From Paramacrobiotus metropolitanus (Eukaryota > Tardigrada > Eutardigrada > Parachela > Macrobiotidae), in NCBI RefSeq assembly GCF_019649055.1, contig NW_026570230.1, positions 868,001 through 932,000 of the forward strand: a stretch of 64,000 bases of DNA. The letters run 5' to 3'. The notes under the pieces are model-generated. The model saw only the letters and a list, made by a program, of their open reading frames with translations. It was not told the DNA's origin and made no database searches. How positions within the stretch are numbered: position 1 is the first letter of the stretch; every line of letters begins with the position of its first letter. Positions 9,862-31,114 of this stretch are shown here, piece after piece. The translations under genes were made by a program, and so were the position numbers.

Positions 9862-12800
9862 ATGGCCGAGGAAAGCAACTGGTGGGAGTAAGTCCGCTAT
9901 GATGAGTAGTTCAAACTGCATAATCAGTTTTGGAAACCGTTTATGACCTTATATCTGTACATACATCTTGTGCCGTTTTCCAGCGATGACGTCGTTACAG
10001 CGGAAAACCCAAACGAGCAAACGTAAGACCTACTTTAGTAATTACTGTTGTAAGATTATAGTTTTTACAAATCTTTGTTTCGTCTATTCTCACTTCACGA
10101 CGCGGTAAGTAGTATTTACAATAATTATCTCGGAGAAACTTTTGCTGCAACAGTGCAAGCCGTGTTGAGTTGTTCGAAGTGCTTGTGACACGGCGAGTTC
10201 AATTTCAGGGAAGAGGCGCCAGGAAAGCGTGAAAATGTGGACCAATCCGAAAATGTGGACCAACCCGCGGCCGCAGCAGCAGAGTTAGTTCTCGAAAATT
10301 ACAACAGTTTCTATATAGGATGCCAATGTGTGGAATAAATTTGTTGAAACTCTTATTATTGGATAGGACCGTAATACAACCAAACGGAGACAATTTGCTG
10401 CTGGATTTTGGTACAACTTCGCAGTAAGTCATGGCATTACAGCTTCATAAATACTGTAATTCATTAAATCACTTTTGTACTAATGTTTTATAAGCATTAC
10501 GTAAGCCATTTAGATTTGCAGTCCCGCTTTTATCATTTTAACTCATATGGGCAGATCCCAGTAATGAAGAATGACTAGAATAATTCATGATCAAAAGCTT
10601 ATATATGAAAACTGTAAGGGATGGTAGACAGGCGATATAGACTATACTAGATATGCACTATGCAACATATTCTCAAAAAATGAATAAGCATGAAGGTATA
10701 TTAGTAAGAATGTTGTTATTGTTTTCTTTACTTTTTTACAACAGTGAGGTGCCACAAAGAGCAGAAGCCCAGCCAGATTTGTTGCTCGATTTTGATGCAG
10801 GATCATCCTGGAAGTATGTGTACCAGTTATGCATTCTGTATACTGCGAGAAATTTTATAAACAATTTTATAAATAAATCTGATACCTTGCTTCATGAAGC
10901 AAAATAAATTCGTAATTGTTTTAACGACTTATCGTTTTGTAGAGAGAATGTGCAACTTGAAGATGCGGACGTCTTACTAGAAAATGCCATTGAAGACGAC
11001 CAGTGCGTAAAATAAAGCCGCATTTGATTAATGGAAAAAGAACGTTGTAATCTGTTACGGTGTAATTATATAATAGGGAGAGTGCGCCCACTGGTGGGGA
11101 TGACGCTTTACTGGATCTGGGAATAGAGTCCGAATCAGAGTACGTATAGCGTACCTCCTTTGACCGAGATACTTTGGACAACGTACAACATGCAAAATGC
11201 ATTAACGCTTATGTTTTTGTTTTTAGAAAACGGTACGGAGCCGGCACGTGCATGTTTACGGGGTTTTCGTGCAGCGCATTGCAAAGTAGAAATTGTTTGA
11301 TTATCCTGGCGAATAGGTTAGCAAATTGCTTTATTGCAGCGATGAGCAAGAGGACCGGCCGAAAATGAGGTTAGTCGTGCATGCCGCGTTCCACGTACAG
11401 AGTACACTTGTACAATGGACTATCCACAATAGCTTGCATAATGGCGTTCTGCCTTGATTTTAAAAATTCAGCGGTATTTTGTGGGCTGATACGAAAAATG
11501 ATTATGCTGAAGCCGCTTTACCTACCTCTGTAAACAGTATTTTTTTTTCCTCTAAGGAAAATGCAGTCGGTAGTAGAACCAGCCGCACCGCCGTCGGCGG
11601 AAGCGAAGTCCGAGGCGCAGTTGATAATCGAAGCCAAGCAGCGCAAACGGGAGGAAGAAGATATGGAAGAACTACAGGCTCTGGAGGAGAAACGACGAGC
11701 CGAGCGGGAACGAGAGGAAGAAGAGCTGCGCCGTCTCAAGGAGAAACAGGTCAATACAACTGCAGTTTTTTACTAGTAAAAGTATACATGCTGTAACAGC
11801 GGCAGCAAATAAAAATTATTATGATTTTAATATATGCAGTATTAAGAGCATACTGAGATTTACAAAAACACGTAGACGTACTTTTAATAGAACCTTTAAA
11901 ATATTAAACTGCAGGCAGAAAGAAAAAAGGCTCGTGAAGAAGAAGAGCGTCGTTTGGAGGAGCAAAAGCAGCTGGCAGAAGAACAGAGAAGGAAAGATGA
12001 GGTAGGCATTTTGTTAGTGCACGTGCATAAATAATTTTAATGCCAAAACAGTTTAGAATATGTAAGCTACGTAAATACATACATAATAAATTGCATCAAA
12101 AACATTAATTACGTACATGAAAACATATAAGGTGCTACAGTATACATTTGCATACATATATGCCACCATTTGTCGAATTTCGAATTTTGATCCATGATAG
12201 GAGTATCAATTTGTTTTTAGGATGCGCGGCGCCAGAAAGCGGAAGATGAAAAGCAGCGGAAGAAGGAAGAAGCTGAACGAAAAAAAGCAGCTGCTGCCGC
12301 TTCGGCTAGCGGTGGACGTAACTTTGTTATCGACAAGGAGCGCAGCGGAGAAAGCGGTGTTGATAAGGTAAATATCTGAATAACATTTACGAATCAGTGT
12401 TAATAAGATACAAATACATAATTTTATTTTAACTGTTTGTTTAATCGATAAAACCTTGCTACAGAATTGCGCCAAAAATTAAAAATAAGGTATAAATATA
12501 CGTCCGTTTAATTAAATTCGGTTTGCACGGTTTTAAAAGTTTATTATGCACTTATTATTCGGAAAATTGTGCTACAAAGGCATAACTGAATATGTCTGAC
12601 AATGAGATCTTATCCGGAAGTAGAAAACATAAAACATGTTATCACAAATACTGTGCATATTTCTAGTTCATGAACATATCAAAAGCCAAAACGGAAATGT
12701 CCCTAAACGCCGGCGAATTGCAAGACCTACGCCAGAAAACCATCAACGATCGGGTCAAACCGCTCTCGGTTTCGGAATTGGATCACAATGGTTTAAAATC

Positions 12801-13559
12801 CAAAGCGGAAGATTTATGGAAGACTATTATAAAACTGGAAACTACAAACTATGATCTGGGCGAACGTTTCAAGCGTCAGGAATATGACGTAAGGATTTTA
12901 ATAATTGGCTGGCATTTCGGTAATGCATGCACCTGGAAAGCAAACTATTTTTACTGCAGCTGAAAGAGCTCAATGAGCGTCAGCGCCAGATCAGCCATAA
13001 AAAACATCTGGCACAAGGACTGGACCCGGAAGCGGCCAGCTCACGCTATCCACCGAAAGTACAGCTGGCTAGTAAATACGAGCGACGCGTCGATCGCCGG
13101 ACGTTCGAAGAGCGCAAGAATCTCTTTGAGCAGAATGGCGTCGACGATAAACCCAAAGAGCTGGTTAAGCCGCTGGCTAAGAAACGCGAGGACTGGATTA
13201 AGCCGAAGGAAACAAAGTCTCACCGAGAAACGCCGGCAGATGACTTCGAAAATGAACATGCGGAAAACGATGAAATGGAGAAAAACAGCGTAGTGCATGT
13301 GGATGACGAATCTTTCGAACAGCAAAAGGTCAACTCACAAAACAGCCAAGAACACGATCAGGACGATTGGACTGAGCCAGATCTGGCAGAAGAAGCGCAG
13401 GAAAATCACATTGCTGTGGCGTCAAATTCGAGGAAGTCAAGCGGTATTGTTTCTCAGACGGAATCAGAACGAGACATCAATGACGAAAATGTTAACGAGG
13501 ACGATTTGTTTGCCGGCAAGGAGGATTATACGGCACTGGCAACTACGACTGAGGCTTAA
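9862..13559 (+). CDS. TnT: Troponin T, the tropomyosin-binding troponin subunit
   Basis: Thirteen coding exons: 9862-9887, 9984-10022, 10209-10283, 10367-10423, 10745-10813, 10943-11002, 11077-11139, 11340-11369, 11557-11749, 11915-12001, 12221-12367, 12667-12888, 12960-13559. With all included the protein has 555 residues. Troponin T anchors the troponin complex to tropomyosin on the thin filament and relays Ca2+ control of contraction. Diagnostic features are the acidic N-terminus, the central Glu/Arg/Lys-rich helix, GGRNFVID, and KYERRVDRRTFEERKNLFE near the conserved C-terminal core. Exons 2-8 are each multiples of three and join in phase 2, so each can be skipped without a frameshift. 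The C-terminus has an extra acidic tail of roughly 120 residues, reminiscent of the Glu-rich extension of some arthropod troponin Ts. The exon 9 donor is GTCAAT. Confidence 0.93.
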
Positions 13560-14057: not shown

Positions 14058-15569
14058 TTATTCGATCAGTGTTTTGTAGGAGTTCACAGTGTGATTAAAA
14101 CAGTCTGGCCATATCGCTTCTGGACATTCCGGTAATGTGTTGTCCCACTTGTAAGCGGCGAACTGGGACGAGCTCAGGCAGTAGGGCTGGAGAACAGCGT
14201 TGACCGCGCTGTTAACAGATTGTATGGCTGAGTTCGACATGTCCGTAGGTTTGGTTTTGGTGTACACATAAAGATGAGTACTGGCACAAGCTCCCGATGC
14301 CCAGTTGTGCTTAGCACACCAAAAGAACATCACGTACGACGACTGGTCAGTTGACCAGATGATGGAAACATCGTAACCTGCCAAAACAAGAATAGAGGTC
14401 ACTCTTTCAGCTGTTTGAATTTTTGCTTTCGAATGGCTTCTGGAATTTTGAACAAAAAAATCTATTAATTTAATTGTACCGATACCGGCGATACGTATGC
14501 GTCTACCGCAGTAATCTTGTTTAATTGTCGTTTAGTATACATATTTCATTATATAAATATACACTACCGTGGAGGGTATTGTTAATATGCACACACAAAC
14601 ACAATACGTACCATCTTCATTTATAGCCCCTGAACTGGTCAGTCCAAAATACGGCCCAAACTGGCGTCCGTCGTTCGTGAATTCGCAGACTTCCACTTCA
14701 TAAGCGCAAGAACCACTTGTATATTTGCGCTTTTCTTGGTAAATTATTTCAGATAATTGGCTTCGGGTAGGTTCGACGCTTGTTCCCAGACTGGTGTAGT
14801 AATTGACGACATTTACATCGGTTGGATTTTGCGCCGTGCCGGAATCGCTATTGTATGTAAGGTAGCCATACCATGGTCCGGGGGTCATCAGCTAGAAGTA
14901 AATAGAATAAAAGCCCGGTAAAGATAACTAATCGGCAAAGTACTGCACTGTATATCTAGGTATTTGCGTAAGAGGTAAATTACTGCTTAACCAAGTTTGT
15001 CTGCTAACTAGTCAAATGTTTTTTTATTTGTTTATACGGATTGAGTGCACGCTTATACGGATTGAGCGAAAATAGGTACCTGGCCGATGTTATACGTGTT
15101 AGGAGTCGCGACAACGTTCGGTATTGGAGTGCAGGATCCCGTTCCACTACCCGATCCACTACCGCTTCCCGTACTTCCGGTCCCTGAACTGGAGCCGGTT
15201 CCGCTGCCATTCCCGGTTCCCGTGTTAGTTCCCGTATTAGTTCCAGTGTTAGTTCCAGTGTTGGCACCAGTATTGGTTCCCGATCCAGTCCCTGATCCAG
15301 AGGTACCCGCTCCGTAATTGCCAGTATACGTTTGACCATTGGCATAGAACACAAAAGTTAGCCAACCTATAATTATTACAAAGATTATTAGTCAACAGTT
15401 TTTGTTACGAATAACCCTGTACGGCATGTAATATTATGTTCATCAAGAATCATCAAGACAGTATAATAAAGGCAGCAGCTAACAAGTAAGCTGTTAGTCC
15501 ACCCTGCAAAGTACAGAGTATGTGAACTGGCTGCAGACCTAAAAAAATAATGCCAGTGTTGCTGTTCAT
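14058..15569 (-). CDS. Lipocalin-like secreted protein, copy 1 (long Gly/Thr/Ser linker)
   Basis: Exons on the minus strand: 15569-15539, 15366-15080, 14891-14612, 14377-14058, giving 305 residues. A signal peptide is read across exons 1-2 (MNSNTGIIFL then GWLTFVFYANG). A Gly/Thr/Ser/Asn-rich linker of about 60 residues follows, then CTPIPNV, GPWYGYLTY (a lipocalin-like GxW motif), GSCAYEVE, WCAKHNW, LYVYTK and a C-terminal helix-like segment ending in Cys (TLPECP). The order (GxW strand, paired Cys, late strand with basic residue, then helix and final Cys) resembles lipocalins, which carry small hydrophobic ligands. This is pattern matching only. Exons 3 and 4 have exactly the same lengths (280 and 320 bases) as in copy 2 at 17827-19060. 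Exon 1 relies on a GTCTGC donor and is the least certain part. Confidence 0.72.
15090..15310 (-). repeat. Coding low-complexity Gly-Thr/Ser/Asn repeat
   Basis: Imperfect reiteration of 6- to 12-base units encoding Gly-Thr-Asn-Thr and Gly-Ser-Gly-Thr within exon 2 of lipocalin-like copy 1. Such DNA expands by slippage. The linker is shorter in copy 2 and nearly absent in copy 3, so it is evolving in length. The opposite strand reads as a Pro/Val/Leu open frame that is only a shadow. Confidence 0.8.
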
Positions 15570-17826: not shown

Positions 17827-19060
17827 TTATTCAATTAATGTTTTATAGGCGTTTACGGTGTGATTAAAACAATCCGGCCAGGCAGGTTTGGGACACTCCG
17901 GAAGTGTGTTGTCCCACTTATACGCGGCAAACTGGCTGGTGTTTAAGCAGTACGTCTGCAGGACACCGTTAACCGCGCTGTTGATCGACTGCGTCAACGT
18001 AGATGACATATCCGTTGGCCTTGTCCTGGTGTAGACGTAAATGTGAGTGCTGGCACATGCTCCCGATGCCCAATTGTGTTTTGCACACCAGAAGAATAGT
18101 ATGTACGTCGATTGGTCAGTTGACCAGATGATGGAAGCATCATAACCTGCAGGTGCAAAATTAAGATCGCTGTTGCAGTTGCATGCTTCTTCATATTTCC
18201 TTAACGATGATTTCCGGAACTCGAAAAAAACTAATTAAATTTTGGTTTTGCTATAGCCCAGTATTTCAATTGTTGACACTGCGTTGCTTCTTGCGCTATC
18301 AACGCTAAATAAATTATTAACAGTATTTTACTAACCATAAGGTGATTACGTAAATATGCATACCATCATCGCTTATGGTCCCCGTGCTGGTCAGTCCATT
18401 GTACGGTCCAAACTGGCGTCCGTCAGTTGTGAATTCACTGATTTCAAGTGAGTAAGCACAACTACCACTTGCGTATTTGCGCTTTTCTTGATAAATTATT
18501 TCAGATAACTGGCTTCGGGTAGGCTCGACGCTTTTCCCAAGACTGGTATAGTAATTGACGACATTCACATCCGTAGGGTTCTGCGTCGAGCCGGAGTCGC
18601 TGTTAAAGGTCAAATAACCATACCATGGTCCGGTTGTCATTAACTAAAAACAGAACCTCATGTAACCATATCACATAATTTTACTTTGCGCAGCGGCTTC
18701 GAATATTTACAGGTGTGAAATCGTTAATTACCTGGCCAATATTGTAAGTGTTCGGGGTCGCGATAACGTTAGGAACTGCGGTGCATCCTGCATTAGTTCC
18801 AGTCCCGGTTCCAGTACTACCAGTTCCAGATCCTGCGATTCCTGTCCCACTTCCGGTGACGTACAACACGTCGGCATAATTCTGCGTGATTTTTATCTTC
18901 TGACCCAAGCACAGGTCAAAGAAATCTAGGACTATAGTAACGATTTTACAAGGTGTCATAGATTAATATTTGCACATAGTCATTTGGTTGATCAAATTTA
19001 TGGCAAAGCTTACTGACCGAGGTAAAGTACTAAAGTTTTATATTTCGTGACCAGTTCCAT
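17827..19060 (-). CDS. Lipocalin-like secreted protein, copy 2
   Basis: Exons on the minus strand: 19060-19018, 18925-18732, 18643-18364, 18146-17827, giving 278 residues. The start MELVTKYKTLVLYL leads into a hydrophobic segment acting as signal peptide; its donor is read as GTCAGT because only that keeps the frame into exon 2. The mature part has a short Gly/Ser/Thr linker, CTAVPNV, GPWYGYLTF, a segment with GSCAYSLE, WCAKHNW, LHVYTR-type strand, YCLNTSQFAAYKWDNTLPECP and a final DCFNHT. It is very close to copy 1 in exons 3 and 4, with identical exon lengths and phases, so a local duplication. Function as a small-molecule carrier is inferred from the lipocalin-like pattern. TATAAATA lies about 130 bases upstream. 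Confidence 0.72.
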
Positions 19061-19199: not shown

Positions 19200-20514
19200 C
19201 GAGCATGATTTTGTATGTTATCTGTACCTATTTCATACACGTTTTTCTTGTGATTACGCAGTAATTAGACGTACTATGCGATAATCATTTAACAACATAC
19301 CATGAAATCGTTCAACACGAATATTATTTACACCTACTCGCATTACGTAACTTAACTTAATTAGTTCGAAATTCAAATTAGCAACTCCGGCGTCGGCAAC
19401 ATACAGAAATTGTACTCGTATTTCCACTTTTCAACTGCATGAGCGATTTCGGTCTAAACGTTCACCAGATTTGAGTGAAGTTTACGAAGGCACTCTAATG
19501 TTCGTTGGTTTTTATTATATTATATTTTTGTACTGAATGCCAGGGCACTTCAACCTTGGGAGTTGAAAAAGCAAGCTCGCTGCTGTAATATCATTATGGC
19601 AAACCGCGGTTAAAACAGGTAGAGTAGTGCATTTAAAATTTTCAGTACAATGATCGGTTATCAACTGAGCGGAAATTTCGCCAGAGGCCAACAAAATCCG
19701 AAATACAGCACCTACCAAGATAGATTATTTCTGAGTGTCCGCAGAATTCAAAAACCATGGCCATTTTAAAACAATTTTGCTTATATACGAGTATAAACCA
19801 TTTCAAGGGGTATAAACGTACAGTAGGGAATAAACGTACTAGGGAATAAACGTACAGTAACTAGGGAATAAACGTACAGTAACATTGTGAGTTTTCCACC
19901 GGTAGTCGAAAAGTTGAAATAAGAAAGATTGGAAAGTCGTTGGCGTATCCAATAAATTTTTTATTAAGGCTCAGCCATTCAACTTGCCAGGATTGTTACC
20001 TATGTATACAGCAGTCGTTTACAGTAAATTCAGTAATTGTACAAGTACTCCTGCAGTGCATGTTTTCATAATAATATTGTATTTTAGACTACCGTATATG
20101 CGGAATCGTTTTTGGGTACTTACACAAATCGCACAATAACATCTACCACCATTACTCCGTTATTTTGCCAAAACCGGATAGTTATTTGTTGCAGATGTAC
20201 GGTCTTCCCAACCCTGATCTTTCAAATAATCAACATAAATACTGCATTCTTCGAAATAGTGCGCCCATCCTGCTTATGCAGCAGAATGACAAATACAGAG
20301 CAAACTCAAACTAAAAAAGAAGCGTATAGAACACGCACAACGTATGCTTGCCGAGTGCGCAACATAAAGGAATATTCATCAAATAAAAAGGCAAAGACCG
20401 ATTCCGGTTAAATTTGTTCTTGCCTTAGGTAATTCAAGGTGGGCCCTAATACACAAGATAAAAGAATTGTCTGTTAATAAAACTTTAAGGTCGAAAATTT
20501 TGATTTATTGAAAA
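19200..20514. other. Divergent intergenic region, no gene seen
   Basis: This lies between minus-strand lipocalin-like copy 2 and plus-strand MNNL/C2-like copy 1, so it should hold both promoters. It contains a short tandem repeat at 19809-19883. Small open frames at 19515-19718 and 20112-20411 show no domain or splice support. Confidence 0.4.
19809..19883. repeat. Short tandem repeat, about four copies
   Basis: Units containing GGGAATAAACGTACAGTA are repeated about four times with lengths from 17 to 23 bases, the first being a degenerate GGGGTATAAACGTACAGTA. This looks like simple slippage. No function is evident. Confidence 0.8.
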
Positions 20515-21728
20515 ATGGCAGCAAAGATAATTTATGTGCTTACGCTTTTACCGGTGTGTCTGGGTATTCCCGGTGTTGTTGACCTTTCGCAGTCGTTGAT
20601 GGATAAAGCTCGTTATCCCGAAATTAAAGGATGCTATAGAATTGAGGCTCTTATTCTGACAATGCAAAACCCCCGAGGAACAACGCGCAACTGGATGCCA
20701 TGTGATTTAGTTCCCGGAAGTTGCAATCCGAAAATTACCGGAGCTATTGACTAGTAAGTTGCTCGTGTCATCCTTTTAATTTAAACAAATAACGTTTCCC
20801 TTTATAACGGCAATGAACAGTTCTGCAAACTGTTTTACGTGACGGTAATATAATTGAGTATTGTCACGTGTTACTCCAGTGAGACGTTTCCATGAAAATA
20901 ATTGTTAATTCGATTTTGATCATATCAGTTCAGAGTAATTAAGTTTCCACTTTCCAGCCAAACCCCAAACAATGATTTTGGTAAAGATTCCGTTCCGTAC
21001 AGCCGGTTTTCTACGTTATGGGACGGTGGGTCGACGAAAAATGTGGATGTCAATCAAATTATGAGCAAGGATGTCTGCAACCACAGCACTTGGGTAACTG
21101 ATAAACGCACAAGAAGGAAATTATCCTGCGTGCCTAACGGACACTGCTAGTTGAATTAACTAACACTGGCTTGTTTACAGAAAGTTAATGTGCGCATTCG
21201 TGCCGTCGATAAAGGTATATAATATAATACCTGGTAATAAACAATCTAAAATACGGTAGTATCAATACTGAACGGTTATTATAGAACTTGAAACCGATAA
21301 GATAATTATGCTGCATTGTTTTCCCGTGTTTCGTACGTGTCTTAGGGTAGGGTTTTGTTTTGGCGCATGCCAGTGGAAATCTGTAAAAAAAGCTTTTATG
21401 TCTTGTTCTTGTTCTTCCCAGATGTAATCAGCGACGACAGTATTGACCACTGGAGCTGTTTCATTTACACAACTGACGCCCCGGCTTCCAGCGAGCAGAA
21501 TGCCCACTGGAGCGATGAGAAAACATGCACAGGACACAACAGTGCTCACAAGTAAAAAGATAGAGTGCTTCTGATGCGCAAATTTGTTCGTGATTACACT
21601 GAATGCTTAATTCTCTCCTTTGTAGGATTACCTGGAAATACCGATGGTTTTATGTGCCGTGCTCATCCTGCAAAGAAGTCGCCGGAAGTAGTGGTATACT
21701 AAGACGATATACGCCACTAATTGGTTGA
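20515..21728 (+). CDS. Small secreted MNNL/C2-like protein, copy 1
   Basis: Exons 20515-20753, 20958-21093, 21181-21214, 21422-21551, 21626-21728, giving 213 residues. A signal peptide (ALVLTLLPVCLG-like, residues 1-17) is followed by YRIEALILTMQNPRG, two Cys, a DFGKDSVPYSRF block, KDVCNHST, and an acidic turn with DKD and DDSIDHW before CFIYTT. A G-x-aromatic-x-I/L start followed by N-P-x-G resembles the MNNL domain of Notch ligands, and the clustered Asp residues look like a C2-type Ca2+ site. This is a structural guess. No DSL or EGF repeats follow, so it is not a full Notch ligand. Compared with the other three copies it has one extra intron (after SAHK), an extra Cys (VPCSSCKE) and a Cys in the first strand (GCYRIE). 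AATAAA lies at 21744. Confidence 0.75.
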
Positions 21729-22513: not shown

Positions 22514-25500
22514 ATGCTAAGGACACTGCTGCTGTTAATGTATTGCTTGTATTTTGGGCTTCAGATAAATTTTCTAAACGGGCAAAACATGCGAGCATGC
22601 GTATTTAAAAACAGCTATGCACGAAAACTTCAATTTGATTACAGTAAAGCGGGAGCAGCGGTTGAATTAGCTGCTGATTATGTAGTCAATGACAGCGTTT
22701 TACCGGCTGGCGTTAATCTAGAGCTGTTTTCTATCGAGCTCGGTCCAGAGTGTCCAGATCAGAGTCACGCCCAGGATTATGTTTTGGATCTATGGAGTCG
22801 AGGGTTCATCTGCAATATCTATATCGGTCCAGGTAAAGCTAAGCGGCTTGTAGTTAAAAATTAAAAATATTATTTGCTTTTCGTTCTCGCAGTTTAAAAT
22901 TTTACATTGCGTCAGGCATGGTTTGCTGCTTCCTTAAATGAAATGCAACATGTAGTAAATTAATAGCGGCACATGCTGGCCATAACGCACTACGAGTACA
23001 ATACAACGGTGCAGTTCATCCTACTGAGTTGTGCGAGTGTCAAAGTTAAATAAGTGTTAGGAGTATTTCTAAGTTTCTTCTGGCGATTAAAAGCTGCTTG
23101 TAGTGGAAACACCAGTTATATACCTAACACTAATATAAAAATAGTAGCGCTATTACTCGTATTACTACGTTATATTCAAGACCAAGTTCGCTGTGTACAA
23201 AACAGGATGTTTTTACTTAAACTGACTGTCAACGGGTGAATTTCATCGCAAATTTACGTAATATACATTTTTTAATTATTAATCTTTATTTGTGACCGAA
23301 ATTAGGATGCACAGCCGATGTGGAAAATGTGTACGACATTTCCGATTTCCTTCGGATTCCCATGATTGGATTATCCGGTGCCGGTGTTGGTGCCGGGACG
23401 AGTCTGGCGTTTTATCCGTCTCTAATTAGAATGTCCGTTACCCACACGAATACCCTCTCCGTATTATTACGTTTCTTTGCCTACTTCAATTACACCAACA
23501 TCGCTGTTATTGTGGATCGGTCTGACCGGTTTTACACCGATATGTTTAATGTCATCCAGGGAACCATCTACAGGCAAACGGACTCGCGTTTCTATCTGTC
23601 GACGCTATTTCGGCAATTTAACAGCCGTAGAACTAACGCAAAGGAAAGCATCCGAATGATTTTCAAGGAAATCGAGCAATCTGCACGAGGTGTTGTACCT
23701 TCTCAATCCTCACAAAGTAAAAACTGTTGTCTTTCCGATTTGTGTAGTTAACGATATTTTTTACAGTTGTGTGCTTATTGGCCAATGGAACAACCACAAG
23801 AAAATTGATGGTAATAAACATTCGTACAGATACTGCATGCTGTGCTGAGATTCCAGTAAAAAAAGTGATAATGATGTATTCCACAAAATAGTACTTCCAC
23901 TCTAATTAACCTGGCAGTGCCAGCGGTATCAAGGAGTTTTTTGTCGAAGTTTGGTAAAAATTGAGGAACCTTAGTGGTGCTTTTTGCACCTAGCAGACGC
24001 TGCCGGGTTAATGTATGGCAAATCCAGCGGTCAAATAATTTAGTATGATTTATCATTAGTTTTTACAGTTACGCCTTACATTTTTAGGTCCGGGCTGCTA
24101 AGTACAACATGATTTCCAGCGACTATGTGAGTAGCCTGCAATCTTGCAATCTGAAGTTTATGGGATAAATGATTTTTTTTCTTGATAATTTGCTTTTTAA
24201 ATGCGTACAAGCACGAGCAGATGTAAGTCATCCAAAGTTATAATGTGCCTCCTCATTATTGCGAATATCTGTACTACGCTTTGTTACCCTACCCGATACT
24301 GGCTGGTACAAATGTAATTAATTTATCAAGGTGACGGATCGAAATATTATTTCTAATACCCAGTAACGCAATAATTCAATAATTTATTGTGCGATTCAGG
24401 TCTATTTGGCTGTGGAGCTCTTTCAGAGCGCAACATGGGGATCGTTTAGTTGGCAAGTTTATGATGACGATGACAATGTAGGTACGACTTATTATGCTAA
24501 GTACCTATCTGTACGTATTACTTTCATTTTTGTTTTATATTATAGTCTAATTTTTCACGTTCTATATTCACAGTTTTTCAGTATTAGAGATGAACGTCTT
24601 CAGTAAAATTATGAAATGATTATCATCTGTATTTTCTTTCAGGCAGCTCGAACAGCGTATTCATCGCTACTACTGGTGTCGTACAAGCAAAGCATATCAG
24701 CAGTTCAAGAACAGTTTGAAAGAAAAATCAAAGAAAAATCTCCTAAGTACGGATACATCTATGCAGCCCGGGAAAAGGTCTCATATCTCATGTTAATTTT
24801 TTTTTACATTTTTTATCACTGAATATATATCGTAAATTTATATATCGTAAATCATATATATATTTCGTAAATCGTAGTAGGTTAACGCAAAAACTAATGG
24901 CATATCTTGTATAGGTGGAAACCGTTGTTGCGCATTTCTATGACGCAATTGTTCTATATGCGTCGCTCTTATCATCCCTCGTGAAAATGGGTGCTAAAGT
25001 TACGGATAACGAGGCACTGTGGAAAATAGCCAATAACTACAGTTTTACGAGCCCACTCAGTGGATTGGTCCAGCTGGACAATAACGGAGATCGCCTCAAT
25101 GATTACGCAATTAAAAAGTTCAGCGATACTTCTTCCAGATTTGAGGTACATATATTTTCTGAACTTCAGTATAAAACAATTCAGTATAAAAAAAGAGCAC
25201 GTATCTGTACTGTAAAAAGATTAATACGATCGTACTTCGATTTGGTGTACGTACGGGCAGCACTCTAGATAAACACAGTTATACGGACTACAGATATGTG
25301 GTAATATGCATATACAGGCAATTTTTAGAATTTAATGCAGCAGAATTGACACATTAATGCTTTACCACAGATAAAGAATATTGGGTGTGTGTGTTATATT
25401 AAACTGTTTGCAGCCTTTCCTTGAGCTTCCTTTCGCAACTCGCACCGTTCAGATTGTGGACAAAATAACATGGAAGGATGGAATGTCTTTCTTACCACCG

Positions 25501-28500
25501 AATACGCCGCGATGTGGATTTCGTGGTGACAATCCAGATTGCATTGTCCGCAAAGGTCATCAGTGTCAATCTAACGTTTGAATAACACTGCGGCTAGCGG
25601 CGCGTGTAACTGCTCACGTGTAACGTTACAGCATTAAGTTACAGCATTGCCTTTTTATGGATATCCGGAACTTTCTTGCCTTTCTCCAGATTATTCTCTA
25701 AATCTTGTAGATTCCGGGTGGGATGCACGCACCATCGTGACCATTGTGCTCATACCGCTGCTAATCGTCATCTTCGGATGCGCTACAGCGCGTTTCGTCC
25801 TGACACGGTACATCTGGCTAAAATAGAACGGATTATCTGATGTTTGCAAGTAATTCTTAGGCTTTTGTCTCTGTAGATATTTTAAGGGGACGTTTGATCC
25901 GTACTGGTGGCGCATACTGGAGCAGGAATTACGAGAACCTAGTATTGATGGAATGGGAATTACAGCTGTGCAGTCACGATCGCATCACAGTGCTTCCGGC
26001 TTATCTGCTGCGCGCTTTACAACAACGTCAAGCAAGGTATGCAGAATTAAATTAACAGAATAAACAAAATTAAAACTGCTGGTCTCAGAAATACATTTTG
26101 AGATAAAAGCAAAAATTTTGTAACGCCCACCCATTGATTTACTGTGCGTGGAGGATCTTTGTATTAATATTGGTGTTTAGGACAAAAGTTCCAAACTTAA
26201 AGACACGATATCGGCCGTTAAATCCACGTTTACCATCGGCTCATTATATCCTACCTGCAACCAAATCTTTGTTTACAAAACTAATCTCGTTGGAGCAACG
26301 GTGCTGCCTGTCCCGCTTAAACGGGCTAATATGGAGATCGCCCAAGCAATGCTTCCGGTACTGTAAACTGCGAATAAATTAAAGTCGGCATTACTTGCGT
26401 AGCTTTAACGTACTTCCTTTAACAGTAATTTAACAAGTCCAAAAAGATAACTTATGCTAGCTGCATCAGCGGTTATTAGAAAAAGCAATTGGAGTAAATT
26501 ACTCATATATACATCTATTTGTAGTTGCGGCTGATCCAACATGTTAACTTGCAAGAATTCTACGGCATCGAGGTCAGCAATGAGAACTTGTGCCTATCGC
26601 ATATTGGCGAACTCTGCCCAAAAGGCAATTTAGCTGTCCTACTCAAGAGCAGTACCGTTAAGCTGGATGAAGTGTTCAAAATTTCTCTCGTCCAGAATCT
26701 CGTTACTGTTAGTACATAAGTTGTGATCATTTTGGAAAACTGCATTCACCACAATATTTAATTAATGTTTCAGGGGCTAAGTTATCTGCATAAGAGTGTG
26801 GTGGCCAGTCACGGTTTTTTATCGGAAACCACTTGTTTAATCGACTCGCGGTTCGTGTTGAAAATTACTGGTTACGGACTGAGTGTATTCCGCACCGAGG
26901 CACAACTACACCCGCCGGCCAGCAACGCTGACATTAAAATTTTCTACGATTATTTGTGGCGTGCCCCGGAATTTCTGCGTAAACCAATGGGCCCCAAGGG
27001 ACGCCAGCCGGGAGATGTGTACAGTGTGGCTATCCTCATGCATCAGATTATCCTGGAAAAACCGCCCTTTGGTAACCCGGCGCACGAAGAAGACCCGTGG
27101 ATTGTGGAAGACGAGGGGAAAATTAAGGATATTATTATGGAGGTACCTTCGTAAATTGCATGTCAGATGTCCATAAAATTATTAATGCGCTGCCGGTTTT
27201 TAAGGTCATCGATGCCTAACACAATTTTTATGGCACAGGTAAAACGCGGATCTCCTCCATTACGACCGCGCCTGGTCCGTAATGTCGGGCCAGACTTCCT
27301 GTGGGATTTGATGGAGCAGTGTTGGATGGAAAATCCCGCTAGTCGACCCACCATACACAAAGTACAGGAAACCATTAAACACCGGGCCCCGCAGCCGGGT
27401 GACCGCGTTACCGACCATCTTATTCAGCGAATGGAAGGTTATGCGACTACTCTGGAAGAGGAAGTCGAGCACAAGACCCGGCAGTTTATGGAGGAAAAGC
27501 GTCGAGGAGAAGAAATCCTTAGCCGAATGCTACCAAAGTCCGTCCATGTATAAATATTTTTCAACTGTAAATCCAACGTTGTTCCTATGCATTTTGACAA
27601 ATCGCTAATCCATCATATAAATTTCTCTTAAAAATTTAAAAAAAAAATGTTTACGGTTAAGTGTTGTTTATGTTGTTGCGAAAAATTGACATTTACGTTT
27701 TATAGATATGTAGCCCGTGCAATCACTGATGGAATGCACATAGAACCGGAGACATTTGATAGCACGACAGTTTTCTTCAGTCACCTGGAAGGTTTCGAGC
27801 AGATCATCAGTAGGGCGTCTAATCCGTTGGATATCACAACGATCCTAAATAACTTTTACGTAATCTGTGATGCCGTGATCGATAAATATGATGTCTATAA
27901 AGTGGAGGTCGTTACGGACGCGTACATGGTACAGGAAATGACCTTTCCATAGGATTTCATTTTGCAGTAAAGTCAGTTAGCCTTTGTGTGGCGCAGGTTG
28001 TTAGTGGATTACCGGTTCCCAATGGAATCGAGCATGCCAGTATTATTGCGAAAATGGCGCTGGAACTTACACGGAAAATAAGCGGAAGAGCGTTTGATGG
28101 CTCCCCGGATGGCACTTCGGTTGACTGCGACCTTCGAATCGGAATGAATTCCGGTATGAATTAAGCTGCTGCATTAAAACACTAAAGTATTTGTAACAAA
28201 TAAAACCAAAGCTGCACAGTATAAATTCATAATTTAAAACAATAATAATTACTGACTAAGTGGAAAATGCCATCTCAGGTATAATAACGCATTTCCAGGT
28301 TCATGTGTAGCTGGTATAATTGGAATCAAGCTTCCACGATACTGCTTGTAAGTTTGTGATACCCACGCTTGCAACTAATGTAAATGCGGGCAGTAAGGTG
28401 GTTTAGAAACGCTCGCTTTTGCAGCGCAGAGAACTGATAACGTTTTCATTACATTAGCTAAATACAAAAATGTATATTAGCAAATATCTAAAAACATGTC

Positions 28501-28874
28501 TGGAAATATTTAGATTTGGTGACACCGTGAACATAGCTTCCAGAATGGAGTCAAACGGGCAAGGTAGTCTTAATCGTGTGTCGACAGTGGATAATCACAT
28601 GTACAATACCTAACGTATGTAATGGGTGACTTACGTGTGTAACCCGTGTCCCATAATAATTGCAGCCGGCAAAATACACGCCAGCACAACTACTCAGGAA
28701 TTGCTCAAGAACAACACAGATTTCAGCTTTACTTGTAGGGGTGAAATTACAATCAAGGTGCGGTGCACCTAGCTAATTAGACGCTCCCAACTACGAATTT
28801 GAATAAATTATTTGCAGGGAAAAGGCATGATGACGACATACTGGCTACATGGAAAACAGCAACAGCCACATTAG
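22514..28874 (+). CDS. Receptor guanylate cyclase (natriuretic-peptide-receptor type) with altered catalytic site
   Basis: Twenty exons: 22514-22832, 23306-23689, 23767-23810, 24088-24126, 24400-24477, 24643-24777, 24915-25145, 25414-25555, 25711-25807, 25877-26036, 26181-26357, 26525-26707, 26774-27142, 27239-27537, 27706-27928, 27997-28153, 28299-28347, 28514-28563, 28666-28757, 28818-28874; 1094 residues. In order: signal peptide (1-23), ANF-receptor ligand-binding domain, juxtamembrane Cys pair (RCGF...DC), membrane helix (about 463-486), kinase-homology domain lacking kinase residues (SHGFL, TGYGLS), dimerising helix (EEEVEHKTRQFMEEKR), cyclase domain. This class makes cGMP at the membrane. 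Guanine-selecting Glu (VYKVE) and Cys (YCLFGDTVN) are kept, as is Asp957 (TDAYM), but the first metal-binding Asp is His912 (FFSHLEGF). An upstream in-frame ATG at 22496 would add six residues. AATAAA at 28981. Confidence 0.9.
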
Positions 28875-29418: not shown

Positions 29419-29501
29419 CCCGTTCAACCGGTCGGCTGCAGTGCACACTGCTACTGCTTCCTCTTATTTACTAGCAAAGGGTGGTTCTTGCATGCTAAAA
29501 A

Positions 29502-31114
29502 ATGAATCCCCTTTCCTTTTTTACTACGATACTGGCATGCTGCTCCTGTGCTTTGGCAATTCCGGGACCATGGGATCTCATGCAGGACGCGCTGGACCTG
29601 AAGAACACCAAGATTACAGGCTACTTCCGGATTGAAGCGCTGATCCTCACCATGCAGAATCCACGCGGCACCACCAGGCGCTGGATGCCGTGCGACTTAG
29701 TTGCCGGGAAGTGCGATCCTTTGATCAAAGTTGCCATCGACTAGTAAGTGTGCATCGCTGAATAGAATGAAAATTATATCGTGTACTGTATTGAAATATG
29801 TGCAGTTTGTCTTGTGCATAGCATAAATTTACTGTTACGCCTTCAGCTACAGAGTACTAGCAGAAACAGTTTAACTTGGTAAAGGTTTAGAGGTTTTCTG
29901 GTTAATATATATGCATTTGTAATCCTTTTGGAAGTTTTGATTAATTTAGGAGGTAATAGTTGCTGTTTTACAATACTGTAATGTTAATGTGTGCATTCGA
30001 TCATTTAATTAAGTTAATTTTCAGTCATACCCCCAACTACGACTTTGGAAAGGATTCCGTTCCGTACGGCCGGTTTTTGACTATTTGGGATGGAAGTGGT
30101 GAAAACAACGTCGACATCAATAAAATCGTCAGCAAAGACGTCTGCAATCATAGTACACGTGTAAGTTAATCAAGACAAGTTCCCACATTTATCGCGTCTT
30201 TTTGCCAGGAACAACTCACCTCCCATCACGAACAAAATGCGTTAGAACGATGTGTCAGTTAAACTGCCTTGAGGCGATGGATTTACAGTAATTGATTAAT
30301 ATGGGAGTGTGATTATGGGAGTGGAATATTGCGATATTTAACGAACACAGCACTTTTAGATGACTTAATTGTTTCGTACCACTCTGTCGTGTATTTTACA
30401 TACAACTACCTTGCATGTGCGTAACACATTATTACCATTTACTGAAGTATTTTACGTTGCAGAAAGTCAATGTGCGAATATTGGCAAAAGATAAAGGTAA
30501 GCCGTTGGTGTGGGTTCGTTTCTAACGATAAGTGCTGTACATTAAGTCCAAGTATGTTTCTCAAAAGTTTGATTTTGCTCTGTATAAAGACTGGTTTTGA
30601 GTAAGCATATTAATATACTGTAAATACGTGAACTCAACTTGTTGTTTAAACTCATAAGCAATCAAAATCTGCATCTTTCCTCTGATTTACACACATCATT
30701 AATTTTTTGGTGGTGTTAAGCCGTATGTTAGTGTTTCGAGTTCTTGTCTGACCGATAGACAAACTAACAAGTAAAGTAAATTGATAATATAATTTTGATC
30801 TTGCCATTATGATCAGATTACAATTTGTGTGAAGTCCTTTGCAGTAGTAATAATACTCTCATTTTATCATGACAGATGTTATTCGGGACGACACTATCGA
30901 TCACTGGAGCTGTTTTATCCAAACGACACCTCCGCCGGCAGAAAGTGAGCAGACTGCCCAGTGGTCAGAGGAGAAAACATGCAGCGGCCACAACAGTGCG
31001 CATAAAATTACCTGGAAATACCGATGGTTCTACGTACCGCAGGATCAATGCAAGGAAGTTGATGGCAGCAGTGGTATCATTCGTCGGTACATTCCATTGT
31101 GGGGCAAGAAATAA
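29502..31114 (+). CDS. Small secreted MNNL/C2-like protein, copy 2
   Basis: Exons 29502-29743, 30025-30160, 30463-30496, 30876-31114, giving 216 residues. The signal peptide (FFTTILACCSCALA) ends before IPGPWDLMQ. The core has GYFRIEALILTMQNPRG, PCDLVAGKCDP, DFGKDSVPYGRF, DVCNHSTR, the acidic segment AKDKDVIRDDTIDHW, CFIQTT, KTCSGHNSAH, KYRWFYVPQDQCKEVDGS and a basic end WGKK. Six Cys in the mature part suggest disulphide bonding outside the cell. It is nearly identical in the core to copy 4 at 38289-39432, with intron positions and phases the same, so the two are the youngest pair. The start at 29502 is preferred over an out-of-frame upstream ATG because it opens the signal peptide. Molecular function is unknown. 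Confidence 0.8.

Follow-up and report, generated by a model that had tools for sequence, protein, structure and literature searches.

A tardigrade receptor guanylate cyclase with His at the first metal-binding position, and two opposite classes of active-site loss among its paralogues

The window analyzed here is a stretch of 64,000 nucleotides from the genome of the tardigrade Paramacrobiotus metropolitanus (C10:868001-932000). Its forward strand carries a receptor guanylate cyclase gene, closed by a stop codon at 28872-28874, in which the first of the two Asp residues that hold the catalytic metals (Asp1) is replaced by His. Receptor guanylate cyclases are usually regarded as homodimers, and the locus raises the question of whether a receptor with this substitution is a dead enzyme, an enzyme with altered metal use, or one part of an active site that is completed by a different subunit.

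Architecture and active site of the window gene

The gene contains the entire domain set of a metazoan receptor guanylate cyclase, i.e. an extracellular ANF_receptor domain, a single transmembrane segment, a kinase-homology domain, a coiled-coil linker and a class III cyclase domain (Table 1). The product of exon 1 starts with a hydrophobic N-terminus that is signal-peptide-like in its hydropathy (MLRTLLLLMYCLYFGLQ). The ANF_receptor model (Pfam PF01094) matches the exon at 23308-23685 with an E value of 6e-8, and the Pkinase models (PF00069/PF07714) match positions 26774-27544 with an E value of 9.5e-12. The Guanylate_cyc match to the catalytic domain is full length (190.7 bits, model positions 2-183 of 183), and the closest solved relatives of this domain are ANP receptor 1 (E 7e-56) and GC-C. 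The gene model leaves out extracellular parts at ∼23.7-24.4 kb and ∼25.2-25.4 kb; the modelled exon pieces between 22514 and 28871 are all open, with GT/AG ends at most junctions. The figure of 20 exons in the first-pass annotation, which had seen no stop or frameshift, is provisional. The donor at the junction between the linker and the catalytic domain reads CCAAA/GTCCGT, and the position of this junction is common to the paralogues.

Table 1. Features of the window gene, in window coordinates
Feature	Position	Strand	Basis
Coding exon 1 and start of extracellular domain	22514..22832	+	open frame; GT donor after IGPG
Extracellular ligand-binding domain exons (ANF_receptor)	23308..25542	+	open pieces, GT/AG ends; internal boundaries partly modelled
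Single transmembrane segment ARTIVTIVLIPLLIVIFGCATARFVL	25713..25814	+	translation; hydrophobic run judged by eye, between extracellular and kinase-homology exons
Kinase-homology domain and dimerization linker YATTLEEEVEHKTRQFMEEKRRGEEILSRMLPK	25878..27537	+	Pfam match; splice donor position as in paralogues
Catalytic exon 1, with FSHLEGF and VTDAYM	27706..27928	+	Guanylate_cyc PF00211; alignment with ANP receptor 1 and GC-C
Position 1: His (CAC) for metal-binding Asp1 (D486 of soluble GC alpha)	27782..27784	+	codon; ANP receptor 1/GC-C alignment
Position 2: guanine-selecting Glu (GAG), kept	27905..27907	+	codon read
Position 3: metal-binding Asp2 (GAC), kept	27917..27919	+	codon read
Other catalytic exons up to stop	27997..28874	+	open frames, GT/AG ends
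Position 4: metal-side phosphate Arg (CGA), kept (R574 of soluble GC alpha)	28135..28137	+	codon read
Position 5: guanine-selecting Cys (TGC), kept	28343..28345	+	codon read
Position 6: ribose/transition-state Asn (AAC), kept	28530..28532	+	codon read
Position 7: transition-state Arg (AGA), kept	28542..28544	+	codon read
Position 8: phosphate Lys (AAG), kept (K593 equivalent)	28755..28757	+	codon read

The cyclase gene is flanked by two similar putative secreted proteins (20512-20754 and 29499-29744; GYFRIEALILTMQNPRGTTRRWMPCDL...), and the copy at 29499, the only one scanned, has no Pfam match. Elsewhere in the window, a tandem pair of similar genes on the reverse strand (14058-15391 and 17827-18962) encodes a repetitive stretch rich in Gly, Thr and Ser and a conserved end that contains cysteine, with no Pfam match for a fragment of the first copy. 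Glu/Lys/Arg-rich coiled-coil exons at 11464-13559 on the forward strand look troponin T-like by eye only.

In soluble guanylate cyclase (GC), eight active-site positions are divided between the subunits, with positions 1, 3 and 4 (D486, D530 and R574) on alpha and positions 2, 5, 6, 7 and 8 (E473, C541, N548, R552 and K593) on beta (PMC3591389). Of these eight, the window gene is without position 1 only, and the beta-side five are complete. When TVFFSHLEGF...YKVEVVTDAYM of the window gene is aligned with ANP receptor 1 and GC-C (FSDIVGF...YKVETIGDAYM), His falls at Asp1 and Thr takes the place of the Gly before the second metal-binding Asp (Asp2). The alignment and the codons thus confirm what had been claimed of the first metal Asp, and also the retention of Asp2 and of the purine-selecting Glu and Cys; the last two mark the domain as a guanylate rather than an adenylate cyclase. 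The Gly-to-Thr change is likewise real, but it was dropped as a further oddity, as only 72 of 193 paralogues have Gly at this position. A base-calling error at the CAC codon is disfavored, since the sister gene of the window gene has Arg there and an independent paralogue has His.

With His at Asp1, the window gene lacks the pair of Asp residues that a self-sufficient homodimer of the GC-A type contains. Its incomplete metal side and complete Glu/Cys/Asn/Arg/Lys side are those of a half-site similar to soluble GC beta. The first-pass annotation took both Asp to be needed in class III cyclases. This is true of each active site but not of each subunit, since in soluble GC both are required in the alpha subunit only (PMC3591389).

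Loss of metal-binding residues in the receptor-cyclase family

The genome contains about 190-240 receptor-cyclase catalytic domains, many of them in tandem arrays; these family counts come from one unannotated assembly of 169.8 Mb, in which haplotype duplicates raise them somewhat, and the class sizes given below are estimates from part of the members. The pattern FGDT[VIM]N...x[MIV] has 240 matches in the genome (0-1 in the control), and 193 strict YKxE...x.Y catalytic exons (181 distinct) were found among the pattern matches listed (241 of 273). The family is ∼7-9 times as large as that of C. elegans, which has 27 receptor cyclases (PMC5225109). A search of the open-access literature found no report of a tardigrade cyclase expansion or of pseudo-cyclase receptors, although such absence is not proof that none exists.

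In 39 loci that were picked without knowledge of Asp1, this residue is lost in 18 (∼46%; 11 of 24 taken in pattern order and 7 of a further 15), a count in which three Asp-to-Glu changes are included as losses. At least one Asp is lost in 14 of the 24 loci of the pattern-order set. Asp2 is absent in 25 of the 193 catalytic exons, and five paralogues (L072, L078, L106, L107 and L112) have lost both Asp. The window gene, which had been presented as exceptional, is typical here.

The replacing residues bear on altered metal use, in which His would coordinate Mn2+, Zn2+ or another ion and the homodimer would be active with different metal needs. His can serve as a metal ligand, and the distant paralogue L121 (C29:1053897-1054138) has acquired it at Asp1 independently of the window gene (FFSHIWGF). 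However, Arg (FFSRLEGY) stands at this site in L034 (C43:216.8 kb), which at 54-56% identity is the nearest paralogue, and Ser, Ala, Tyr, Lys, Gly, Gln and Glu occur at Asp1 in other paralogues. In a tandem array of eleven receptor cyclases (L015 and L090-L099; C68:136.9-359.1 kb), Ser is found at Asp1 in every member (FSSMVGF or FSSMLGF), with IKDGYV or VKDGYV at Asp2. A metal carboxylate could not be substituted by Arg, Lys, Ala, Gly or Ser. Altered metal use, which had been one of the two proposals of the first-pass annotation, was for these reasons rejected as the main reading, and a special role of His as a metal ligand is highly improbable.

A tree of 87 first exons of the catalytic domain pairs the window gene with L034 as its sister (99/90) and places the two in a group whose other members keep Asp1 (98/84). 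This tree, which is derived from a short alignment of 73 columns and leaves deep forks unresolved, requires at least 10 state changes at Asp1 and 5 at Asp2.

The metal-lost paralogues are under purifying selection. In a trio of genes with Ser at Asp2 (L101-L103), dN/dS is 0.04-0.08, and in the C68 array with Ser at Asp1 it is 0.06-0.23 where dS is not saturated. Between the window gene and L034, pN is 0.28 and pS is 0.85, and the differences at first, second and third codon positions number 23, 19 and 51. The low dN/dS in the trio and the array and this excess at third positions indicate that metal-lost genes are not decaying pseudogenes. The weak GTCCGT donor before the catalytic exon would fit an artefact or a pseudogene in decay, which should be recognizable by a broken frame or neutral evolution, but all catalytic exons of the window gene are open, the domain match covers the full length, third positions are in excess relative to the sister, and Asp1 is lost in many paralogues, that sister included. 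An origin of this kind can be given very little weight.

Two opposite classes of active-site loss

The residues on the GTP side behave differently from those on the metal side. Asn and Arg (positions 6 and 7) are kept in 21 of 21 metal-lost paralogues, Cys is kept wherever it is seen, and the guanine-selecting Glu is present in all 87 first exons; a pattern search of the genome for copies that had lost Glu returned background only. Among 14 metal-lost genes, 7 have Lys or Gln in place of the metal-side Arg at position 4 (the R574 equivalent), whereas none of 41 metal-intact genes has lost this Arg. The association of this loss with Asp1 (lost versus kept) has a Fisher p of 1.5e-5 that is uncorrected for ancestry, and a phylogenetically independent pair test of the same two losses had 2 starred pairs only, which is too few. 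The table of Asn/Arg against the metal residues gives p = 0.07 by itself. Since loss of the position-4 Arg is confined to metal-lost genes and the GTP-side residues are kept, the metal half decays as one block while the GTP half is held.

This pattern bears on the reading in which the window gene is a true pseudo-cyclase, a receptor that signals or traffics through its extracellular and kinase-homology domains and whose cyclase domain is a folded dimerization module with no role in cGMP production. Loss of Asp1 in the window gene, absence of both Asp in five paralogues and conservation of the cyclase fold would all be expected of such a receptor. They do not account for the retention of the catalytic GTP-side Glu, Cys, Asn and Arg in all metal-lost genes while the three metal-side residues decay, and Asn and Arg are dispensable for the fold, as six relatives demonstrate. 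We consider a true pseudo-cyclase unlikely.

The six relatives form a reverse class of receptors in which both Asp are kept and Asn and Arg are lost (L013, L042, L050, L058, L059 and L088, located at C6:2054, 2062 and 2071 kb, C98:162 and 170 kb, and C13:696 kb). Their metal side reads FSDIVGF and GDAYM, and in place of the usual FGDTVNxASRM they have FGDTVQIAQKM, FGDTVQIAMKM, FGDTVAVAQKM, FGDTVVIAQKM or FGDTTLIAGKM. The N...R pair has thus become Q, A, V or L followed by K, in each case behind an intron acceptor at an identical position, and the GKG loop near position 8 is also lost in five of the six. Five of the six genes are one clade (98/90) in the tree of 87 first exons, and the class perhaps reflects about two independent losses of Asn and Arg. 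Copies in which Arg is lost and the replacement codon begins with G or T number only 2 of 240. Two further sites, C20:324650 and C229:45070, have Lys for Arg with Asn kept (FGDTVNTAAKM and FGDTVNTANKM).

A heterodimeric type of cyclase calls for a complementary defect in the same genome, and the six receptors with both Asp and without Asn and Arg carry one. The window gene probably encodes a functional beta-type half-site subunit that would form cGMP when paired with a metal-competent receptor. Unable to hold two metal ions alone, the subunit would contribute the guanine-selecting Glu and Cys, the ribose/transition-state Asn and Arg and the phosphate Lys to a composite site. Its linker and catalytic domain, both intact, would mediate pairing with another receptor in which both Asp are present. 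Each heterodimer would then contain one working active site, as in soluble GC. The partner may be one of the six alpha-type receptors (both Asp, no Asn/Arg) or a receptor with the complete set of residues. After metal binding had been handed to this partner, Asp1 would be free to drift, and such delegation would explain His in the window gene, Arg in its sister and many other residues elsewhere.

Subunits without the metal side alongside subunits without Asn and Arg are the split that obligate or preferred heterodimers predict. Loss of catalysis does not predict it, since both halves should then decay alike, and neither does altered metal use, in which case the replacing residues should be ligands. 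Such opposite losses within one family point to receptors that function in mixed pairs. A dominant-negative or tuning subunit would pair with intact receptors and lower their output by taking away one of the two active sites. This role is also compatible with the intact linker and catalytic domain, which make heterodimers plausible, and in such a pair the number of metal-competent sites would indeed fall from two to one. However, it explains neither the strict retention of Asn and Arg nor the opposite class, and it seems distinctly improbable. From the earlier proposal of a pseudo-cyclase acting as a receptor or dominant partner, the idea of a partner is thus retained, whereas a dead or dominant-negative subunit agrees poorly with the kept GTP side. 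Further points bear against the proposed pairing of half-sites, besides the uncorrected co-loss statistics and the few independent losses of Asn and Arg. Conservation of Asn and Arg could be structural, though six relatives lack the pair; the window gene retains the R574-equivalent Arg; and the alpha-type genes need not be the partners, since intact receptors in the same cell could serve.

The sequences show the substitution, the conservation of the other half of the site, purifying selection in metal-lost relatives and the opposite class of receptors, whereas we infer that the subunits dimerize, with which partner they do so, that cGMP is made and that the receptors are sensory. A more speculative extension of half-site pairing, which we consider less likely than not, is a combinatorial chemosensory system in which about a hundred diverse beta-type receptors would each need one of a few conserved alpha-type receptors and cGMP would be made by the mixed pair only, a logic comparable to that of insect odorant receptors with Orco.

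The family-wide split is of more interest than the single gene, which is typical of a large half-site class under selection: about half of some 200 receptors have lost metal-side residues and keep the GTP side, and a small clade shows the reverse. Provided that these halves function, an architecture of many receptors with shared partners can evolve among cyclase receptors, a missing catalytic Asp should not be taken to mean a dead enzyme, and partner pairs should be predictable from sequence and testable. The half-site principle itself is known from soluble GC and from ODR-1/DAF-11 of C. elegans, which is to our knowledge the one documented obligate receptor heterodimer; the scale and the presence of two opposite classes appear to be new.

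Comparison with known cyclases

ANP receptor 1 (GC-A) and GC-C share their domain order with the window gene and are the best solved-structure matches to its catalytic domain, but they have FSDIVGF and both Asp. The mammalian receptor cyclases exist as homodimers (PMC5225109). ODR-1 and DAF-11 of C. elegans form an obligate receptor heterodimer with a single composite catalytic site, to which each subunit contributes essential residues (PMC5225109). They are likewise receptor guanylate cyclases, and they represent one pair in 27 C. elegans receptors, compared with roughly half of about 190-240 receptors as candidate half-sites here.

In soluble GC alpha1/beta1, the active site is split: one subunit supplies the metal Asp residues and R574, its counterpart supplies Glu, Cys, Asn, Arg and Lys, and homodimers are inactive (PMC3591389). 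In their residues, the window gene resembles the beta side and the six receptors without Asn and Arg resemble the alpha side, although the tardigrade alpha-type genes differ from soluble GC alpha in that they still carry Glu and Cys. Soluble GCs are heme proteins, whereas the tardigrade family consists of single-pass receptors with extracellular ligand-binding and kinase-homology domains, whose best solved-structure match is the ANP receptor and not soluble GC, and the half-site losses arose inside the receptor radiation. The C1 and C2 domains of transmembrane adenylyl cyclase form a pseudo-symmetric dimer in which one site is catalytic and the other is degenerate (PMC3591389). In that enzyme, unlike in the tardigrade receptors, both halves are located in one polypeptide and the site is ATP-specific.
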